DNA of 64,000 bases from Caballeronia concitans. GTDB lineage: Bacteria; Pseudomonadota; Gammaproteobacteria; Burkholderiales; Burkholderiaceae. The stretch lies in NCBI RefSeq assembly GCF_001544615.1, contig NZ_FCNV02000002.1:558001-622000 (forward strand). The letters run 5' to 3'. The first letter of the stretch is position 1, and each line of letters opens with the position of its first letter. The notes beneath the pieces are model-generated. The model worked only from the letters and a program-made list of their open reading frames with translations, was not told where the DNA came from and searched no databases. Below, one piece after another: positions 2,889 through 9,413 of the stretch. The position numbers were made by a program, and so were the translations under genes.

Positions 2889-4289
2889 TCATGCTCCGGA
2901 TCGAGTCTTCTTCAGTTTGACCAGAACGTGCGCACAGAAGGCGTCGGCGACCACACGATTGACCGTGAGAATGTTCTCTGCGCTCAACGATTCGCGCGAC
3001 AGTCCCTGCTTTTCGATCAGCCGCTGCGGGATCAGCTGACTCACGAACGAGTGGCACAGGTCCTTGCGCAGTTGCGAATCCGCCGCTTCGAATAGCTCGC
3101 GGCCCGCACGAATCTCCTCGCTCATCTTGGCTCGCGCGGAGTCGTTTTGCGCCTGTATCGTCGCTTCGAGCTGCGCCTGTGCGGACTCGCGTTCGCGGCG
3201 GCTCTTCTTGTCGTCCTCGAGCTGTCTCGCCTTGATCGCGGCCATCTTGCGGTCCGCTTCGCCGATACGGTAATTGCCTTCGAGCGCCTTGAAGAGATAG
3301 CCGCGCGGACTGACGGTGACCTTGCCTTCGTTCAGCTTGAACCGCGTGTATTCGATCGCCTGCTCCAGACGCTCGTCCGTCCAAACCTCGCGATTCTTTG
3401 CGAGGCGCTCGAAGTCGGGCGTATCGAACGCGAATTCGTTGTGCAGCAGCAGGTACATCGAATCCTGAATGCCCGCGCGCGCCGCGTCCGCGCCCTGCTT
3501 CTTGGTGAATCGAAAGCGGATCTTGAGCTTGTCGCGCGTGACGCGATCGGCGTTGGCCTCCCAACTGACATCGAAATCCGACACTTCGTTTAGCTGGTCG
3601 ATGGCCGGCTCGAGAAAGCGCTTCTTGAACTCCTTGACCTCTTTCCGCGATTCACCGACCTTTCCCGGCCATTCGAGCACTTCGTCGAACGGAAACCACT
3701 CGGTGACGCCGTGGCCCTCGCACGGAATCAGGCGATCGTAAATGGCTCGCGCAAGCGAAAGAGAGAAAGCAGTCGACGCGCGCAAACTCAGCCAATGCGC
3801 CTTGTACGGGCTGATCAAATACTTGATGACGCGGCCCGATAGCAGAACGCAGACAACATTGCGCTCGATATAGCAGTCGCCAAGCAGGCTGATCGTTCCC
3901 CAGGAGTCTTTCTCGGTGAGTTCTTCGATCGACGGCGCGGTCATAATTTCGACGCGTGCCCGCGCCGCGGCCCGCATCTGCGCGATCAGGTGGCTGTGGT
4001 TGCGGCTGTCGTAGCGCATGAGCCACTTGAAGTAGTTCACGTCGGCCGTGAACGTATAGACCTTGTCGTCGATCAGCTCGTCCGGCGCCTTCGTCGCCAC
4101 GATGAAGTAAGCGGCGTCGAGTACGCGACGCGCGGCGATGCCGAGTCCGCCTACGCGCGTGAAGATGTTGTTTCTGAGGAAGCCGATGTCACGCGTCGCC
4201 TCGGAGATAGCCGTGCCTTGCCCGGACATGTCTTCGTAAATGTCGAGCGCAAGCTGCTGAGGGGTGACGGTGAGATCCTGGTTTTCCAT
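2889..4289 (-). CDS. Rep_3-like replication initiator protein
   Basis: A 466-residue protein that resembles plasmid-type initiators of the Rep_3/RepB kind used by secondary replicons: a polar N-terminus, two winged-helix-like regions (about 95-310) and a charged coiled tail (about 340-420). I chose the ATG at 4289 (MENQDLTVTPQQ) rather than an in-frame ATG at 4415, because the latter would run through the iteron region and a good promoter (TTGACA/TAGAGT) lies at 4315-4342. It is divergent from parAB across an iteron-bearing segment, which supports its role in binding the iterons to start replication. The call rests on context plus fold-like pattern, as Rep proteins diverge quickly. Confidence 0.8.
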   Translation of the reverse strand: MENQDLTVTPQQLALDIYEDMSGQGTAISEATRDIGFLRNNIFTRVGGLGIAARRVLDAAYFIVATKAPDELIDDKVYTFTADVNYFKWLMRYDSRNHSHLIAQMRAAARARVEIMTAPSIEELTEKDSWGTISLLGDCYIERNVVCVLLSGRVIKYLISPYKAHWLSLRASTAFSLSLARAIYDRLIPCEGHGVTEWFPFDEVLEWPGKVGESRKEVKEFKKRFLEPAIDQLNEVSDFDVSWEANADRVTRDKLKIRFRFTKKQGADAARAGIQDSMYLLLHNEFAFDTPDFERLAKNREVWTDERLEQAIEYTRFKLNEGKVTVSPRGYLFKALEGNYRIGEADRKMAAIKARQLEDDKKSRRERESAQAQLEATIQAQNDSARAKMSEEIRAGRELFEAADSQLRKDLCHSFVSQLIPQRLIEKQGLSRESLSAENILTVNRVVADAFCAHVLVKLKKTRSGA

Positions 4290-4314
4290 TCTTCTATTCG
4301 CAACGGTCCCCGGC

Positions 4315-4342
4315 ACTCTAACAGCCAAGAAAAGTGTGTCAA
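4315..4342 (-). promoter_or_regulatory. putative rep promoter overlapping iteron 1
   Basis: On the minus strand, TTGACA (4342-4337) is a perfect -35 box, followed after 16 bases by TAGAGT (4320-4315), a 4/6 match to TATAAT. It lies about 25 bases before the chosen rep start at 4289. The first base of iteron 1 (4342-4357) overlaps the -35, so Rep bound there could repress its own gene. The motifs are visible; the autoregulation is inferred. Confidence 0.55.
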
Positions 4343-4509
4343 CACAAAAACCGCCCCGGGCTGAGTGAGACTTCGGCAGCACAAAAACCGTCCCAGCCGA
4401 CGGCCCGCGGCCCAAATTCCGCCCCTTCCGTCACAACAACCGTCTGGTCCCGCCCAACTTCCGGCGGGGCCAGCACAAAAACCGCCCCAGTCCGCCCAAA
4501 AACCGCCTC
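4342..4509 (+). repeat. iterons of the replication origin
   Basis: Direct copies of a 16-base unit, consensus GCACAAAAACCGCCCC: 4342-4357 (ACAC start), 4379-4394 (GTCCC end), 4473-4488 (exact) and 4494-4509 (GCCC start, CCTC end). A degenerate copy lies at 4410-4425. Copies 1-2 are 37 bases apart and copies 3-4 are 21 apart, so they are roughly on the same helix face only for the last pair. They sit just upstream of the rep gene, as expected for initiator-binding iterons. Confidence 0.8.
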
Positions 4510-4517
4510 TATCCACA
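4509..4517 (+). promoter_or_regulatory. DnaA-box-like site
   Basis: CTATCCACA matches the DnaA box TTATCCACA at 8 of 9 positions and abuts the last iteron. To its right (about 4521-4620) is a stretch clearly poorer in G+C than the surroundings, a candidate for strand opening. Confidence 0.5.
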
Positions 4518-4681
4518 GGGCTTCTCGTTGATTTCAAACAGAAATCGCGTCGCTGTTAGTTGGTGGGTGTGTCGAAGTTTACAAAAAACAGAACGAACCA
4601 AGACACCGCGGCAACATAATTCGCGCACTGACGACAAAGGTAACAGCCTGATTTAAAAGCGGAATTCTGGGTCCGAAACGG

Positions 4682-4719
4682 CGAGCACAAAAACCGCCCG
4701 GGGGTGGTTTTTGTGCTCG
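4682..4719. repeat. inverted pair of iterons
   Basis: Two iterons meet head to head: a forward copy at 4685-4700 and a reverse copy at 4701-4716. The outer 14 bases of each arm (CGAGCACAAAAACC) are identical. It could be a Rep dimer operator, a handcuffing or copy-control site, or a cruciform. Confidence 0.75.
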
Positions 4720-4819
4720 ATTTCGTTCGCTGCCTAGTGCTGCTTTCTCGATGCCGATGAAACTTACGAAGACGTGGACCGCTAGGTCAAACGTCGCTGC
4801 CAAAAAACGCTACAACCGC

Positions 4820-4849
4820 TTGAAAACTGAGATATTTCAGCGCTATGCA
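4820..4849 (+). promoter_or_regulatory. putative parAB promoter
   Basis: TTGAAA (4820-4825, 5/6 to the -35 consensus) and TATGCA (4844-4849, 4/6 to the -10) are separated by 18 bases, about 60 bases ahead of the parA start. Confidence 0.4.
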
Positions 4850-4872
4850 ACCCTGTTTACGCGTATTCGTGT

Positions 4873-4913
4873 ATTCTGCGCTTCAGCGTCAATACATGGA
4901 GAAAGCGCAGAAT
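4873..4913 (+). promoter_or_regulatory. 11-base inverted repeat spanning the parA ribosome-binding site
   Basis: ATTCTGCGCTT (4873-4883) and AAGCGCAGAAT (4903-4913) are perfect complements. The 19-base loop contains the Shine-Dalgarno GGAGA (4898-4902), and the right arm runs into the parA ATG (4912-4914). It may be a ParA operator in DNA or an mRNA hairpin controlling translation start. Confidence 0.5.
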
Positions 4914-6123
4914 GGCCAACGTAGGCAGCCTACCTATGGAAGACCGCAAGGTCTCTCTTCGCGAGGTCGCGGAATTCGCGGACAACCTCGAGCCGTTTTC
5001 CGATAACTTAAGAGAACAGATTCTCGCGCCCCGTCCGCGCAAGACCGCTCCGATCTACACCATCAGCGAACTCGCGGAGATGTGCAACCTGACGCGCCAG
5101 CAGATTCAATATCTGGTGACGAAAGGCGAAGGCGGATTGCCGGCGGGCACACTGAACGGTAACGGGCGCAGCCGCACGTTCACGCTGCCCGAAGTGCGCG
5201 TCTGGGTGAAGATGGCCTCGGACATCTATCAGACCCGCCTCGAAGACGGTCAGGGCGACTTCAAGGGAAAGGTGCTGACGACGGCGCAACTGAAAGGCGG
5301 GTCGGCCAAGACTACAACGACCGTTTGTCTCGCACAAGCGCTGACGCTGCTGGGTCGAAAGGTGCTGCTCATCGACCTCGACCCGCAGGCTTCCGCTTCG
5401 GAGTTGTGCGGACTCTACGCCGAGAAGGAAATCTCCGGGGACGACACCGTGCTCCCCTATATCTACGACCAGAACGTCGAAGGCGGGTTGGGCGCAAGCG
5501 TTCAGTCGACGTACTGGGACGGCCTCGACATCATTCCCGGTCACACCTTCCTTTACGGTGCGGAGTTCCTGCTTCCGGCGCGGCAGAAGACGATTCAAGG
5601 ATACCGATTCTGGGCCGTTCTTCGCCAAGGCCTCGAACCGCTGCGTGCTCAATATGATTACATCTTGATCGATACGTCGCCGTCGCTGTCGTATATGAAC
5701 TTGAATGCGCTTCTCGCTGCGGACGCGCTCGTCATGCCGATGATTCCCGAGAATCTCGACTTCATCAGTTCGCTGGCGTTTTGGCGGTTATTCTCCGACG
5801 TCGCCGAAGATTTCCTGCCGTACGAAGAGGACAAGGTCTACGACTTCATTTCGATCCTGCTGTCGAAGGTGGACTACGGCAAGACGTCGTCGGCACCGGT
5901 CGTTCGCCAGTGGGCTCAGAGCGCATACGGTCGATGGCTCGACCCCTTCGAAATCCCGGCCAGCTCGGTGATGAGCGGCGGTGCGTTGTCCTTCTCGACC
6001 GCGCTTGACGTCGTGAGCACGCATTCGACAGCGAAGTCGCTTCAGCGTGTCCGACAACCGATGATGCAATACGCCAAGTGGCTCGACGACATGTTCGTCA
6101 AATCCTGGAGGGAAGCGGCATGA
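4912..6123 (+). CDS. parA: ParA-type partition ATPase
   Basis: 403 residues. The N-terminal part has a helix-turn-helix of MerR-like look (ISELAEMCNLTRQQIQYLVT, 51-70), as in type Ia ParA proteins that repress their own operon. The deviant Walker A motif KGGSAKTT is at 128-135, and IDLDPQAS (154-161) and DTSPS follow as Walker A-prime and B regions. ParA polymerises or forms gradients on the nucleoid with ATP and moves ParB-parS complexes. The gene overlaps parB by ATGA, and a hairpin covers its start region. Together with rep it marks this as a self-partitioning replicon. The assignment is firm from motifs and context. Confidence 0.95.
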   Translation: MANVGSLPMEDRKVSLREVAEFADNLEPFSDNLREQILAPRPRKTAPIYTISELAEMCNLTRQQIQYLVTKGEGGLPAGTLNGNGRSRTFTLPEVRVWVKMASDIYQTRLEDGQGDFKGKVLTTAQLKGGSAKTTTTVCLAQALTLLGRKVLLIDLDPQASASELCGLYAEKEISGDDTVLPYIYDQNVEGGLGASVQSTYWDGLDIIPGHTFLYGAEFLLPARQKTIQGYRFWAVLRQGLEPLRAQYDYILIDTSPSLSYMNLNALLAADALVMPMIPENLDFISSLAFWRLFSDVAEDFLPYEEDKVYDFISILLSKVDYGKTSSAPVVRQWAQSAYGRWLDPFEIPASSVMSGGALSFSTALDVVSTHSTAKSLQRVRQPMMQYAKWLDDMFVKSWREAA

Positions 6124-7094
6124 GTAACAACATTCGCGAACAACTCATGGCCAAGACGGCCAACCTTCCCAAGCCGGCGGATTTCAAAGGCGATAAGAAG
6201 GATCGCTCGAGTCGCGGACCCCAGACGATGCCCGGCATCACGAGCGCGCTGGCAGCGGCGCAGTTGCGCATTCAGGAGCTGGAGTCCAAGGGTGTCGAGA
6301 CGGAGATTCCGCTCGATGCTATCGCACCTAACCCGTGGCAGCCGCGTCGGCAATTCAACGAGGCGAAGCTGTCTGAACTGGCGCGGTCGATCGATGAGGT
6401 CGGTCTGCTTCAGGCGGTGACCGTACGGCGCATCGGCGAGACGTTCCAACTTGTTGCCGGCGAGCGACGGTTCCGGGCCCATAAGCTTATCAACAAGGAA
6501 TCGATCCGAGCGGTCGTGATCGATTGCACGGATCAGGATATGGCTGCACTGGCGCTGATGGAAAACGTCACCCGCGACGACCTGTCCGACTATGAAATCG
6601 CGATTGCGATTCGACGGGCCGAGGCGGAGTTTCCCAACCGGACGCGGCTGGCTGAAGCAATGGGGATCTCTCGTAGCGACTTGTACCGGTTTCTGGCCTT
6701 CGATTCGCTGCCCGATTTTGTCAAGCGGGACCTCGACTTGACGCCGTCGGTACTTGGCGCCTCTTCGGCTCAGGACGTTGTGAACGCGCTCAAGAAGGCG
6801 GGTGAAGCAGGCCTCAAGGCGCTTCATGAATTGTGGCCGCAGGTGTTGTCCGGTGACCTGGTTCAGACGAAGCTCGCCGCGAGCTTGAACGCGCAGGTGA
6901 GCAGAGGTGAGTCTGCAACTGATGCTGGCGGTCGCAGCATTCTGAAGATTTTCGCCGGGAAGGTGCAGGCCGGCAGTATCACGAAGGATGTGAAAGGACT
7001 GACGTTCAAGTTCAAGGCTGGGGTCGTGACCGAGGAACAGGAGAACCAACTCAGAGAGCATATTGGGAAGATGTTCTCGATACGCTCGGAATAA
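6120..7094 (+). CDS. parB: ParB-type centromere-binding protein
   Basis: 324 residues starting at the ATG that overlaps the parA stop. The ParB/Spo0J nuclease-like N-domain carries GERRFRA (114-120) and ENVTR (148-152), the conserved boxes that bind CTP in this family. A helix-turn-helix follows at about 176-195 (RLAEAMGISRSDLYRF), and a C-terminal dimer domain at about 265-324. It should load on parS and spread as a CTP-dependent clamp. The likely targets are the four GTCCGAATTCGGAC palindromes just downstream. A terminator hairpin follows within 10 bases of the stop. Confidence 0.95.
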   Translation: MSNNIREQLMAKTANLPKPADFKGDKKDRSSRGPQTMPGITSALAAAQLRIQELESKGVETEIPLDAIAPNPWQPRRQFNEAKLSELARSIDEVGLLQAVTVRRIGETFQLVAGERRFRAHKLINKESIRAVVIDCTDQDMAALALMENVTRDDLSDYEIAIAIRRAEAEFPNRTRLAEAMGISRSDLYRFLAFDSLPDFVKRDLDLTPSVLGASSAQDVVNALKKAGEAGLKALHELWPQVLSGDLVQTKLAASLNAQVSRGESATDAGGRSILKIFAGKVQAGSITKDVKGLTFKFKAGVVTEEQENQLREHIGKMFSIRSE

Positions 7095-7102
7095 TCGTCA
7101 TT

Positions 7103-7125
7103 AACCCGCGCGAGCGGGTTTTTTT
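7103..7125 (+). terminator. rho-independent terminator of parAB
   Basis: The 7-base stem AACCCGC/GCGGGTT with a 4-base loop is followed by a run of seven T, nine bases after the parB stop. Confidence 0.9.
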
Positions 7126-7174
7126 ATGCCTGTAGTTTGATGGGCCAACAGTTCAGAGGTGCGGCCGCAGGAGT

Positions 7175-7188
7175 GTCCGAATTCGGAC
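7175..7188. other. parS-like palindrome 1
   Basis: GTCCGAATTCGGAC, a perfect 14-base palindrome, about 80 bases after parB. The left flank AGT is shared with copies 2 and 4. Confidence 0.75.
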
Positions 7189-7304
7189 GGTACAAAGCTG
7201 TTGACGCGATCGTGCGCCTGTTCCGCCGGCAGTGCCATAAGGGCTGGAATTGTTCTCGATAAGTTTCCCGGTGATCGTTGGACCCCTCGGAATGGTGCCT
7301 AGTG

Positions 7305-7318
7305 TTCGAATTCGGACA
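7305..7318. other. parS-like palindrome 2 (one mismatch)
   Basis: GTTCGAATTCGGAC, the same palindrome with one changed base in the left arm. It is followed by ACC as in copies 3 and 4. Confidence 0.7.
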
Positions 7319-7580
7319 CCGACCGTCAACGGGCGCAACGCTTCGACAGCGCTGCCAACCTCTAACTACGTTGTTGACGTTGCTGAGTTCAGACAGATGC
7401 GCGGGAGCAGCGATATGCACCTGGTGCGGAGGGTCCCGCCCCGGTAGTCCGGCACTGGTCGTCGTGACCTCCGGGGTGGCAAGCACGCCGACCACTTTGC
7501 CCGAATGCCGAAATGACAGCGCGAAAAGCGGGCATCAGCAGTCGTCGTTTGTCGGAATATCTTTCCGGCGACGTGACAGC

Positions 7581-7594
7581 GTCCGAATTCGGAC
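7581..7594. other. parS-like palindrome 3
   Basis: GTCCGAATTCGGAC, exact, followed by ACC. Confidence 0.75.
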
Positions 7595-7968
7595 ACCTAG
7601 CGAGCAACGGCGGGGTCTTGCACTGGCATCGAAACGCGCTCGTAAGACCGCGCGGACCTAAGTTGGTGGGGCGCGATGCATCCTCGTTGCCGCCATGATG
7701 ATCGCAGGCCGCGGAGATCACGAGCCCTTAACGATCCCTGCCCGATTGGAACGCGCGGTCCGAGACTGGAAGCGCCCGCAGTTAGCACGCCCTGCGGTGG
7801 TGATGCGGCGACTGCCGTTACGTGTAGTCCTGCACCGCATGGACCTATGCGATCGGAAGAGCAGTGCCGGTCAATCCTCAACTATTTGTCCGCAGGTGTT
7901 GGTCGGCTATATGAGGCAAGTGCCCTGCGCCGTCTGTGCTTGGGTAGGCAAAGTTGCGGGGAGCCAGT

Positions 7969-7982
7969 GTCCGAATTCGGAC
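7969..7982. other. parS-like palindrome 4
   Basis: GTCCGAATTCGGAC, exact, flanked by AGT and ACC, the extended form AGTGTCCGAATTCGGACACC. Confidence 0.75.
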
Positions 7983-8948
7983 ACCCGCTGTTCGCGCGTT
8001 CGGGGACGACCAGGAGCCATGCACGGCACCTGGATCAAGCGATGAACATTACCCACCTGCGTGTAACGTACCCACCCCGAACCGGATGCGCTTGAAAGAG
8101 CACTGCATCGGAAAGCATGTCGTTGTTATTCGAGACGCGCGACGCGTGCGCCGTAATACTCCGACGATCCTTGAACGGGTTCTTACGAGGCTCCGCGCCT
8201 AAATACCCACAGGCCTGAATCCACCGGGGTGCCGTAGCTCGGAGGGCCGGCACACTAGGATCGTGGGCCGATCACCAACAGGCCAGCCTAAGTCGCCGGT
8301 GAGACAAGCGCCGCCGATGTGCCTGTAACCGTGTGATTACGGAACATGGCGAACGATTTCCATCCATCTCTTCGACGTTGAATTCGAGACAGTCTGCACC
8401 TGAATCAACGGCGCGGAGTTTCGGCCGCACTGCGGCGCACAGGTACCGTTAATCTCGATGCGTGAGGTTGCTGTTTCACCGACGGACCCAACTATGCCCG
8501 AGTTGTGCAACCTGGCGAAGACTGCAGCCGCAATGAGCTGTTCGCGATCTGCCGAATTTCTTAGCGTCTAGCAAGGTCAAAGACGGTCGCTTCAGCGAAG
8601 TACGCATGGAAGCTTTGGCCGGTGACAACAGCCCGTCTGCATGACAGACTCAACTCTCCCGAAACAGCAGGGGCGGTGCCCGTGGAACATCCATGGCTAT
8701 AATAGAAAAGAAAAAAACTTCAGAGAATCAATGACCTGTGTCTGATTTCTCGCGTTGTTTCACGTATGACGACCAGATCGGCAAGGTTTTCGGTCGCACA
8801 CGCTAGTGGAATTGGCTCTCGCCGACACCGGGCCGGCAAACAAACACGATTCGTATCGATTGATACGAAAGCCGTACGTTGCCTTTTGCGTCGACATAGA
8901 TCCTCGGACGGCTTCCGAGTACCCCCGGCGTAACCGATGCGCCAAGCG

Positions 8949-9413
8949 TCAGGCCCGCCGCTTCTGCAAGTCGCGATACGGCTCGCCTGCCTTCAACTGG
9001 TCCAGCCTTGCACTGGCAATAGTCAGCGCCGCGAGGCTTGCCCGTCGTAGTTGATGATCGTAAAGCGATACGATTGCAGCCAACTGCTCCAGGTCGTTCG
9101 CGTCGACGGTCCAGACTCTAGAACGATCGCCACGAGCGAAGGTGTTGGCCATCGTTGCGTCTGCGTCGCGCAACGCTTCGTCGGGAAAGCACCCATGCCC
9201 GGCCTCGGCGAGGAATCTCGCGAGAAGCATGACTTCGGTGATGTGCTGCGCGGGTCCGATGTCGGGCGAGCCGGCGCGCAGCGCTTCGAGTGACAAATGC
9301 GCCTGAAGAGCCAGGTTATCGGCCACGGCACGTGGGATGGGAAGAAGTTGTGCTTTGCTCAGGCGCTTCTGCGTCGCTTGAGGCGAACGTGCGAAAGGAA
9401 GGGCGTTTGACAT
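8949..9413 (-). CDS. conserved hypothetical protein near the partition locus
   Basis: A 154-residue soluble, mostly helical protein starting MSNALPFARSPQATQKRL. I chose the ATG at 9413 because the frame upstream is rich in Arg/Cys/Ala and does not look coding. A typical stretch is KAQLLPIPRAVADNLALQAH (29-48), then a helical core rich in Leu and Ala with a short polar C-terminus. It resembles a small Burkholderia group that is often annotated as a Fis-like regulator, but I see no clear helix-turn-helix and would not rely on that name. It sits alone beside the centromere-like region, so a role in replicon maintenance is possible but unproven. Confidence 0.65.
   Translation of the reverse strand: MSNALPFARSPQATQKRLSKAQLLPIPRAVADNLALQAHLSLEALRAGSPDIGPAQHITEVMLLARFLAEAGHGCFPDEALRDADATMANTFARGDRSRVWTVDANDLEQLAAIVSLYDHQLRRASLAALTIASARLDQLKAGEPYRDLQKRRA

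Follow-up and report, generated by a model that had tools for sequence, protein, structure and literature searches.

The window analysed here, a stretch of 64,000 nucleotides from Caballeronia concitans, carries a plasmid-type replication initiator gene (repA), the partition genes parA and parB and, 3′ of parB, four copies of a palindrome that very probably serve as the centromere (parS) cluster of a secondary replicon (Table 1). The palindromes are tied to this ParB across related genomes, and in more distant relatives their bases vary together with residues of the ParB helix-turn-helix (HTH). An earlier note on this DNA had proposed replicon-specific parS sites in a Burkholderia setting; the host is of the Caballeronia type and not Burkholderia in the strict sense. 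The window belongs to contig C12, of 771,933 bases. The closest named ParB is that of Caballeronia grimmiae (95% identical), and the best plasmid record for the locus is a 913-kb replicon of Caballeronia sp. M1242.

The palindrome cluster and the partition genes

A motif search of the window recovered the three exact copies of GTCCGAATTCGGAC that the earlier note had placed at 7175, 7581 and 7969. The one-mismatch copy, placed by it at 7305, actually starts at 7304, and the right flank ACACC said to be common to three copies is found at 7304, 7581 and 7969. The site is larger than the 14 bases then claimed, the conserved unit being about 18–20 bp and AGTGTCCGAATTCGGACACT-like. These four sites are the only matches to GTCCGAATTCGGAC in the window at up to two mismatches; shuffled sequence gave a mean of 0.42 matches, and four were reached in none of 100 shuffles. 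Genome-wide (6,166,171 bases in 47 contigs) the exact motif occurs three times, always in this cluster, and a reversed control pattern has no match across the same genome. Random spread over the genome, an outcome that the note had named as speaking against its proposal, is thus not observed. The shuffles and the clustering of exact copies together rule out a chance origin of the palindromes. A degenerate 18-mer at two mismatches matches the four sites and one further place in the whole genome, on contig C20; at this tolerance 56 of the 58 genomes of the genus contain some match, which leaves exact or near-exact copies as the only informative ones. The universal chromosomal parS is a different sequence, as had been supposed: in this genome TGTTTCACGTGAAACA is found within two mismatches only on contig C18, in two exact copies, and identity of the palindromes with it was rejected. 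The cumulative GC skew reaches a minimum, not a sharp one, at ~19 kb in the window, ~11 kb from the sites.

Table 1. Features of the partition locus and its surroundings, in window coordinates
Feature	Position	Strand	Remarks
Putative parS site 1, GTGTCCGAATTCGGACGG	7173..7190	.	Exact 14-bp core GTCCGAATTCGGAC at 7175-7188
Putative parS site 2, GTGTTCGAATTCGGACAC	7302..7319	.	One-mismatch 14-bp core GTTCGAATTCGGAC at 7304-7317
Putative parS site 3, GCGTCCGAATTCGGACAC	7579..7596	.	Exact core at 7581-7594
Putative parS site 4, GTGTCCGAATTCGGACAC	7967..7984	.	Exact core at 7969-7982
parB, 324-amino-acid CTPase-type ParB	6120..7094	+	Pfam ParB_N, fold matches
ParB helix-turn-helix, residues 171-196	6630..6707	+	Contains the site-covarying codons
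Co-varying codons R185, S186 and R190	6672-6674, 6675-6677 and 6687-6689	+	
ParB S215, possible partner of site position 8	6762..6764	+	Uncorrected association, not claimed
parA, 403-amino-acid type Ia partition ATPase	4912..6123	+	Pfam AAA_31, E 2.9e-31 at 120-282
repA, plasmid-type replication initiator (Rep3 winged helix)	2889..4415	-	Pfam Rep3_C, E 1.5e-9
Five direct repeats, CACAAAAACCGCC-like, between repA and parA	4338..4698	+	Repeat families D1/D2
Intrinsic-terminator-like hairpin with T tail after parB	7103..7127	+	5′ of all four sites

The genes correspond to a type Ia ParABS system. ParA is a Walker-type ATPase with an N-terminal HTH, the latter seen as a weak MerR_1 match (E 1.1e-4 at residues 49–91), and its best NCBIfam match is plasmid partition RepA, under the family cut-off. 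ParB combines a CTPase-type N domain with an HTH, and its residues G114, E115, R116 and R117 as well as E148, N149 and R152 are invariant in 19 sequences. Clustered, replicon-specific repeats of the kind expected of parS adjoin parAB. The stretch after parB had been described as gene-free, and the matching stretch holds no annotated gene in the relatives M1242 and NK8. Seven terminator-like hairpins were found in the region against 5.3 expected from shuffles, which makes the hairpin after parB weak evidence alone; a similar one follows parB in L073 and L101.

Linkage of the palindrome to ParB across genomes

Exact matches were surveyed in 299 genomes of the family (41 of the same genus and 258 others), and ParB was searched for in 58 same-genus genomes. 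The exact palindrome is present in 27 of the 299, comprising 22 of the 41 same-genus genomes and five of the 258 others; these five matches are single copies at the background rate, the reversed control matching four of 299. Every same-genus genome with a ParB at least 88% identical to that of the window has the palindrome (21/21), and it is absent from 19 of the 20 without such a ParB, the exception being G277. A ParB of 88–100% identity occurs in 26 of the 58 genomes, and a 27th, G308, has one at 80%. Conservation next to parB in relatives, which the earlier note had offered as a check, holds at all 26 loci: one to seven exact copies lie within 1.5 kb 3′ of parB, the first 53–341 bp past the stop codon. 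When the intergenic region 7095–8948 was compared with 13 relatives, in all of which parB is 77–83% identical, only seven matches of 22–39 bp were obtained, in three of the 13; six fall at palindromes and one at the terminator-like hairpin. As little besides the palindromes aligns in this region, selection seems to keep the motif and not its surroundings, number or spacing.

In G238, a Caballeronia insecticola-like genome, seven copies lie on contig C2, whose 900,830 bp equal the size of C. insecticola Chromosome 3. Passages of a study of C. insecticola describe the rep and parABS genes of each replicon, Chromosome 3 included, as free of transposon insertions (PMC10809759). The matching size and the insertion-free rep/parAB of Chromosome 3 together count in support of function.

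G277 (3.9 Mb) carries three palindromes at ~8500–8760 of the stretch L160 (G277:C22:33000-50000), beside a conserved downstream gene (65% identical over 135 amino acids) and bordered by an open reading frame at 7420–8424 that is transposase-like in appearance. Neither repA nor parA nor parB was found in this 17-kb stretch. The orphan sites are likely the relic of a lost replicon origin.

Half-site variants and co-varying ParB residues

A shared half-site plan, namely GTGTY followed by three variable bases and A, mirrored with no spacer or a short one, was assigned at 129 of 136 related ParB loci, 14 of them by hand and two from a single site. Of the 131 loci with 3′ DNA of 1 kb or more, 111 yielded, in a motif-free palindrome search (up to 2 kb 3′ of parB, at least two copies, score above five shuffles), a half-site that differs from GTGTNNNNA by no more than one mismatch; a random 9-mer fits this pattern at one mismatch 1.6% of the time. 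Over the 129 loci, T at position 4 is constant (129), followed by A at position 9 (126), G at position 3 (125), G at position 1 (123) and T at position 2 (117), and positions 6–8 are the most variable. The spacer is 0 in all 43 loci of the close group (C. necator NH9, with an imperfect palindrome centre, being counted as 0); among the 86 assigned loci of the sister group it is 1 in 83 and 2 in three.

Among ParBs at least 72% identical, the outer arms are kept and the core differs by lineage, at the same place 3′ of parB. The core is GAATTC in Caballeronia, TAATTA in several Paraburkholderia, TGATCA in G308, AGATCT in P. tuberum (one perfect site and two imperfect), GGATCC in PREW-6R and BCC1884 and TTATAA in two Cupriavidus, one of which has a single site. 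At the loci of sister ParBs (41–58% identical) the outer arms recur and the palindromes are mostly odd, of 19 bp, for example GTGTCTAGA-S-TCTAGACAC and GTGTCAGTA-W-TACTGACAC; a search for even palindromes found almost nothing in the group of 50–58% identity, and sites appeared once a spacer was permitted. Three Cupriavidus loci (L131, L135 and L136) have tandem arrays 3′ of parB, with 10–39 copies of a CCTTCCCAAGTTGGGACGG-like site ~39 bp apart, and in their ParBs residue 185 is K, not R. In all, 24 combinations of variable bases (the address) and spacer are found on one scaffold, each with a partner ParB. Co-resident replicons carry distinct half-sites in 21 of 22 genomes. In the remaining one, G308, contigs C3 and C4 (L161 and L162; 793,818 and 793,876 bp) are 100% identical over 15.1 kb, par locus included, and are probably one replicon assembled twice.

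The variable bases are statistically linked to the HTH. Across 1327 ParB pairs of 70–93% identity, the extra identity predicted by a shared half-site is greatest in residues 171–190 (effect 0.20, followed by 0.16 for 176–195 and 0.13 for 181–200; median over all residue windows 0.02). Residue–base association was computed in 127 aligned ParBs. G at site position 5 goes with R or K at residue 186 (12/12) and T with N (9/9), while C goes with S, A, T, Q or N; at position 3, T goes with K at residue 185 (4/4) and G with R (122/123); at position 7, A goes with Q at residue 190 (20/21), and C or T never does; and at position 8, T goes with N (30/30) and C with H (13/13) at residue 215. The same pattern is seen in the 111 automatically labelled loci. 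When columns were ranked with one ParB per distinct half-site (n = 29) and no tree correction, residue 186 came top for position 5 and residue 215 for position 8. On a tree built without ParB residues 168–222, columns 185, 186 and 190 co-change most with positions 3, 5 and 7, with two, five and five shared changes, and Q218 does so with position 6. All five shared changes at residue 186 are gains of R or K paired with a C-to-G change at position 5. Address changes number 31 on this tree, compared with a mean of 93 for shuffled labels. A pairing of S215 with position 8 is not claimed, because it is not the top co-changing pair on the tree.

Interpretation, alternatives and related systems

We consider it very likely that a type Ia ParABS system segregates a chromid-type secondary replicon with the four palindromes as its parS cluster, and that the palindromes carry an address read by ParB. 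The replicon-specific character proposed in the earlier note is supported by exact copies confined to this locus, by their tie to this ParB and by lineage variants that co-vary with the HTH. The segregated replicon would be contig C12, at least 772 kb in size, a putative chromid like Chromosome 3 of C. insecticola. Each palindrome would be bound by the two HTH motifs of a ParB dimer, which would load as a cytidine triphosphate-dependent clamp and spread, and ParA would then move or position the loaded ParB. Each half-site would present a constant GTGTY...A scaffold around three variable bases, CGA here. These bases may act as the replicon address, with R185, S186 and R190 among the ParB residues that read it, and would keep this ParB off the sites of co-resident replicons, preventing cross-reaction.

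Several points weigh against this assignment or parts of it. ParB binding, clamp loading, segregation and the address function are what we infer from sequence. G277 has sites (two exact and one imperfect), and a search of its genome found no ParB of the family. Sixteen of the 129 half-sites stem from hand assignment or from one site only, although the links still hold in the 111 others aligned; no site was found at seven of the 136 loci, three of which have at least 1.7 kb of 3′ DNA; and beside the ParAB pair on contig C35 a search of this type turned up no repeated palindrome. As only 8% of random pairs have a half-site in common, the distinctness of co-resident sites in 21 of 22 genomes is weak and not significant alone. 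With regard to the residues, G at position 7 accompanies R at residue 190 in 28 cases and Q in 14, so that G there is not uniquely read. In the ranking that ignores the tree, association extends to many columns beyond the DNA-binding domain, and residue 190 is only fourth for position 7; with the tree, the top column for position 8 is L294, outside the domain, and S215 is not in the listed top seven. Three C-to-T changes at position 5 miss the changes at residue 186, so the link of T with N rests on shared descent. Backbone support is weak (0.22–0.84), which makes the change counts upper estimates, and the five gains of R/K186 with G5 may be fewer.

The palindromes could instead be operators of a transcription regulator, for instance in autoregulation of the par operon. 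This is highly improbable: all four sites lie 3′ of the hairpin after parB, where two relatives have no annotated gene, and the sole sigma-70-like promoter match that a simple consensus scan gave within 4000–9000 is at 4315–4342. Copy number and spacing also differ between relatives, and no exact copy was found elsewhere in the genome. The chance that RepA and not ParB binds the palindromes, as extra iterons or handcuffing sites in replication control, is similarly slim. Linkage to ParB alone is compatible with it, since repA adjoins parAB in the relatives checked, but a separate direct-repeat array adjoins repA, and the site bases co-vary with residues of the ParB reading helix (co-variation was computed for ParB only). 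Several near-identical palindromes in non-coding DNA, together with the orphan sites of G277, would also suit a conserved element unrelated to partition, such as a recombination site or a selfish palindromic repeat. Exact copies are, however, not dispersed in this genome, they form one cluster per genome among the same-genus matches listed, and the core letters change with the ParB lineage, which leaves such an element exceedingly improbable.

The address pattern is a more interesting result than the parS assignment itself. A natural recognition code, in which a GTGTY...A scaffold holds a 3–4-base address switched repeatedly by a few ParB residues, is in our judgement evenly poised between true and false; its pairs would be residue 186 with base 5, 190 with base 7, 185 with base 3 and perhaps 215 with base 8. 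Were the code real, the address of a new replicon would be predictable from its ParB sequence, and movement through address space would be how the Burkholderiaceae acquire compatible secondary replicons. Multipartite bacteria must stop several ParABS systems from cross-reacting, and a natural series of ParBs and sites lets the origin of a new centromere specificity be tested directly, in a manner comparable with the engineered ParB-to-Noc switch of PMC7383237. The sites also provide a simple means of locating origins and of telling how many compatible replicons a Caballeronia, Paraburkholderia or Cupriavidus genome holds, and may supply orthogonal ParB–parS pairs for DNA labelling.

The closest known parallel is the Bsr group. 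Sections of PMC5450999 describe Bsr ParABS systems of Burkholderia cenocepacia c2, c3, pBC and related plasmids, with 16-bp palindromes that have a T-rich 5′ end and a central CG, the core being given as 2C 2G 1A 1T, and a specificity thought to hold co-resident replicons apart. As far as those sections go, both sets are replicon-specific palindromic parS sites on secondary replicons of the Burkholderiaceae; in contrast, the present sites have 18–20 bp, GTGTY outer arms and a central A|T or a 1-bp spacer, and the core in the window is GAATTC, centred between A and T. The sites also lie 3′ of parAB here and 5′ in two c3-type loci. The one c3-type ParB compared is 25% identical to the window ParB over residues 58–229. 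Identity with c3 parS was rejected, as the 34 of 299 family genomes that hold this sequence all belong to a single other genus and the 41 same-genus genomes lack it.

The palindromes resemble chromosomal parS TGTTTCACGTGAAACA and the Noc site NBS in that a ParB/Noc fold goes with a palindromic target, which here too would be read from the start of the recognition helix; they differ in sequence and in replicon, and fall outside the TGTTTCACGTGAAACA family. R185 aligns with the arginine that contacts parS guanine 1. In the portions of PMC7383237 on Caulobacter ParB, R173 hydrogen-bonds parS guanine 1 and N178 contacts parS. Residue numbers were transferred through alignments made in this analysis, in which R185 corresponds to R173 and R190 to N178. 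The type Ia systems SopABC of F and ParABS of P1 have a large ParA with an N-terminal HTH, a ParB and a centromere 3′ of parB, and the window locus shares this layout. The centromere of F, sopC, is built as a tandem array and that of P1, parS, is bipartite, whereas the palindromes here are scattered, though the relatives L131, L135 and L136 do have arrays. KorB sites are spread over the operators of RK2; here there is one cluster beside parB.

GTCCGAATTCGGAC was not found in the open-access literature, a scope that leaves out the founding studies of B. cenocepacia parS (Dubarry 2006, Passot 2012), and open-literature matches to six site strings were on other subjects, judged by title. Related titles and abstract openings, and passages of PMC4948915, PMC10809759 and PMC13342612, contain no pointer to these sites. 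The larger set of address-type sites was likewise not found described, and the founding papers may hold an earlier account.

Other palindromes of the genome include a set, CTTTATGCGCATAAAG, on contig C22, which we take to be close to c2 parS. As controls, the palindrome search recovered chromosome-1 parS in this genome, CTTTATGCGCATAAAG on C22 and c3 parS in two Burkholderia loci. The ParA/ParB pair at L167 (G000:C35) is 43% and 30% identical to that of the window. At L168 (G000:C10), two exact GTTCACCCGGGTGAAC palindromes, at 3608 and 3745, lie at and inside the 3′ end of a ParB-like gene (3613–4569, minus strand) with its own ParA; GTTCACCCGGGTGAAC is possibly a further replicon-specific parS of the same genome.

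On the other side of parA, the open frame of repA has 508 amino acids from a TTG start and is 93% identical over 488 amino acids to the M1242 locus. The annotated M1242 relative has 1398 bases (465 amino acids), so the true repA start is probably nearer 4286. The five direct repeats between repA and parA are candidate iterons of a replication origin. An inverted repeat at 4682–4719, 5′ of parA, has 18-bp arms formed by two opposed direct-repeat units and may be an origin or regulatory element.
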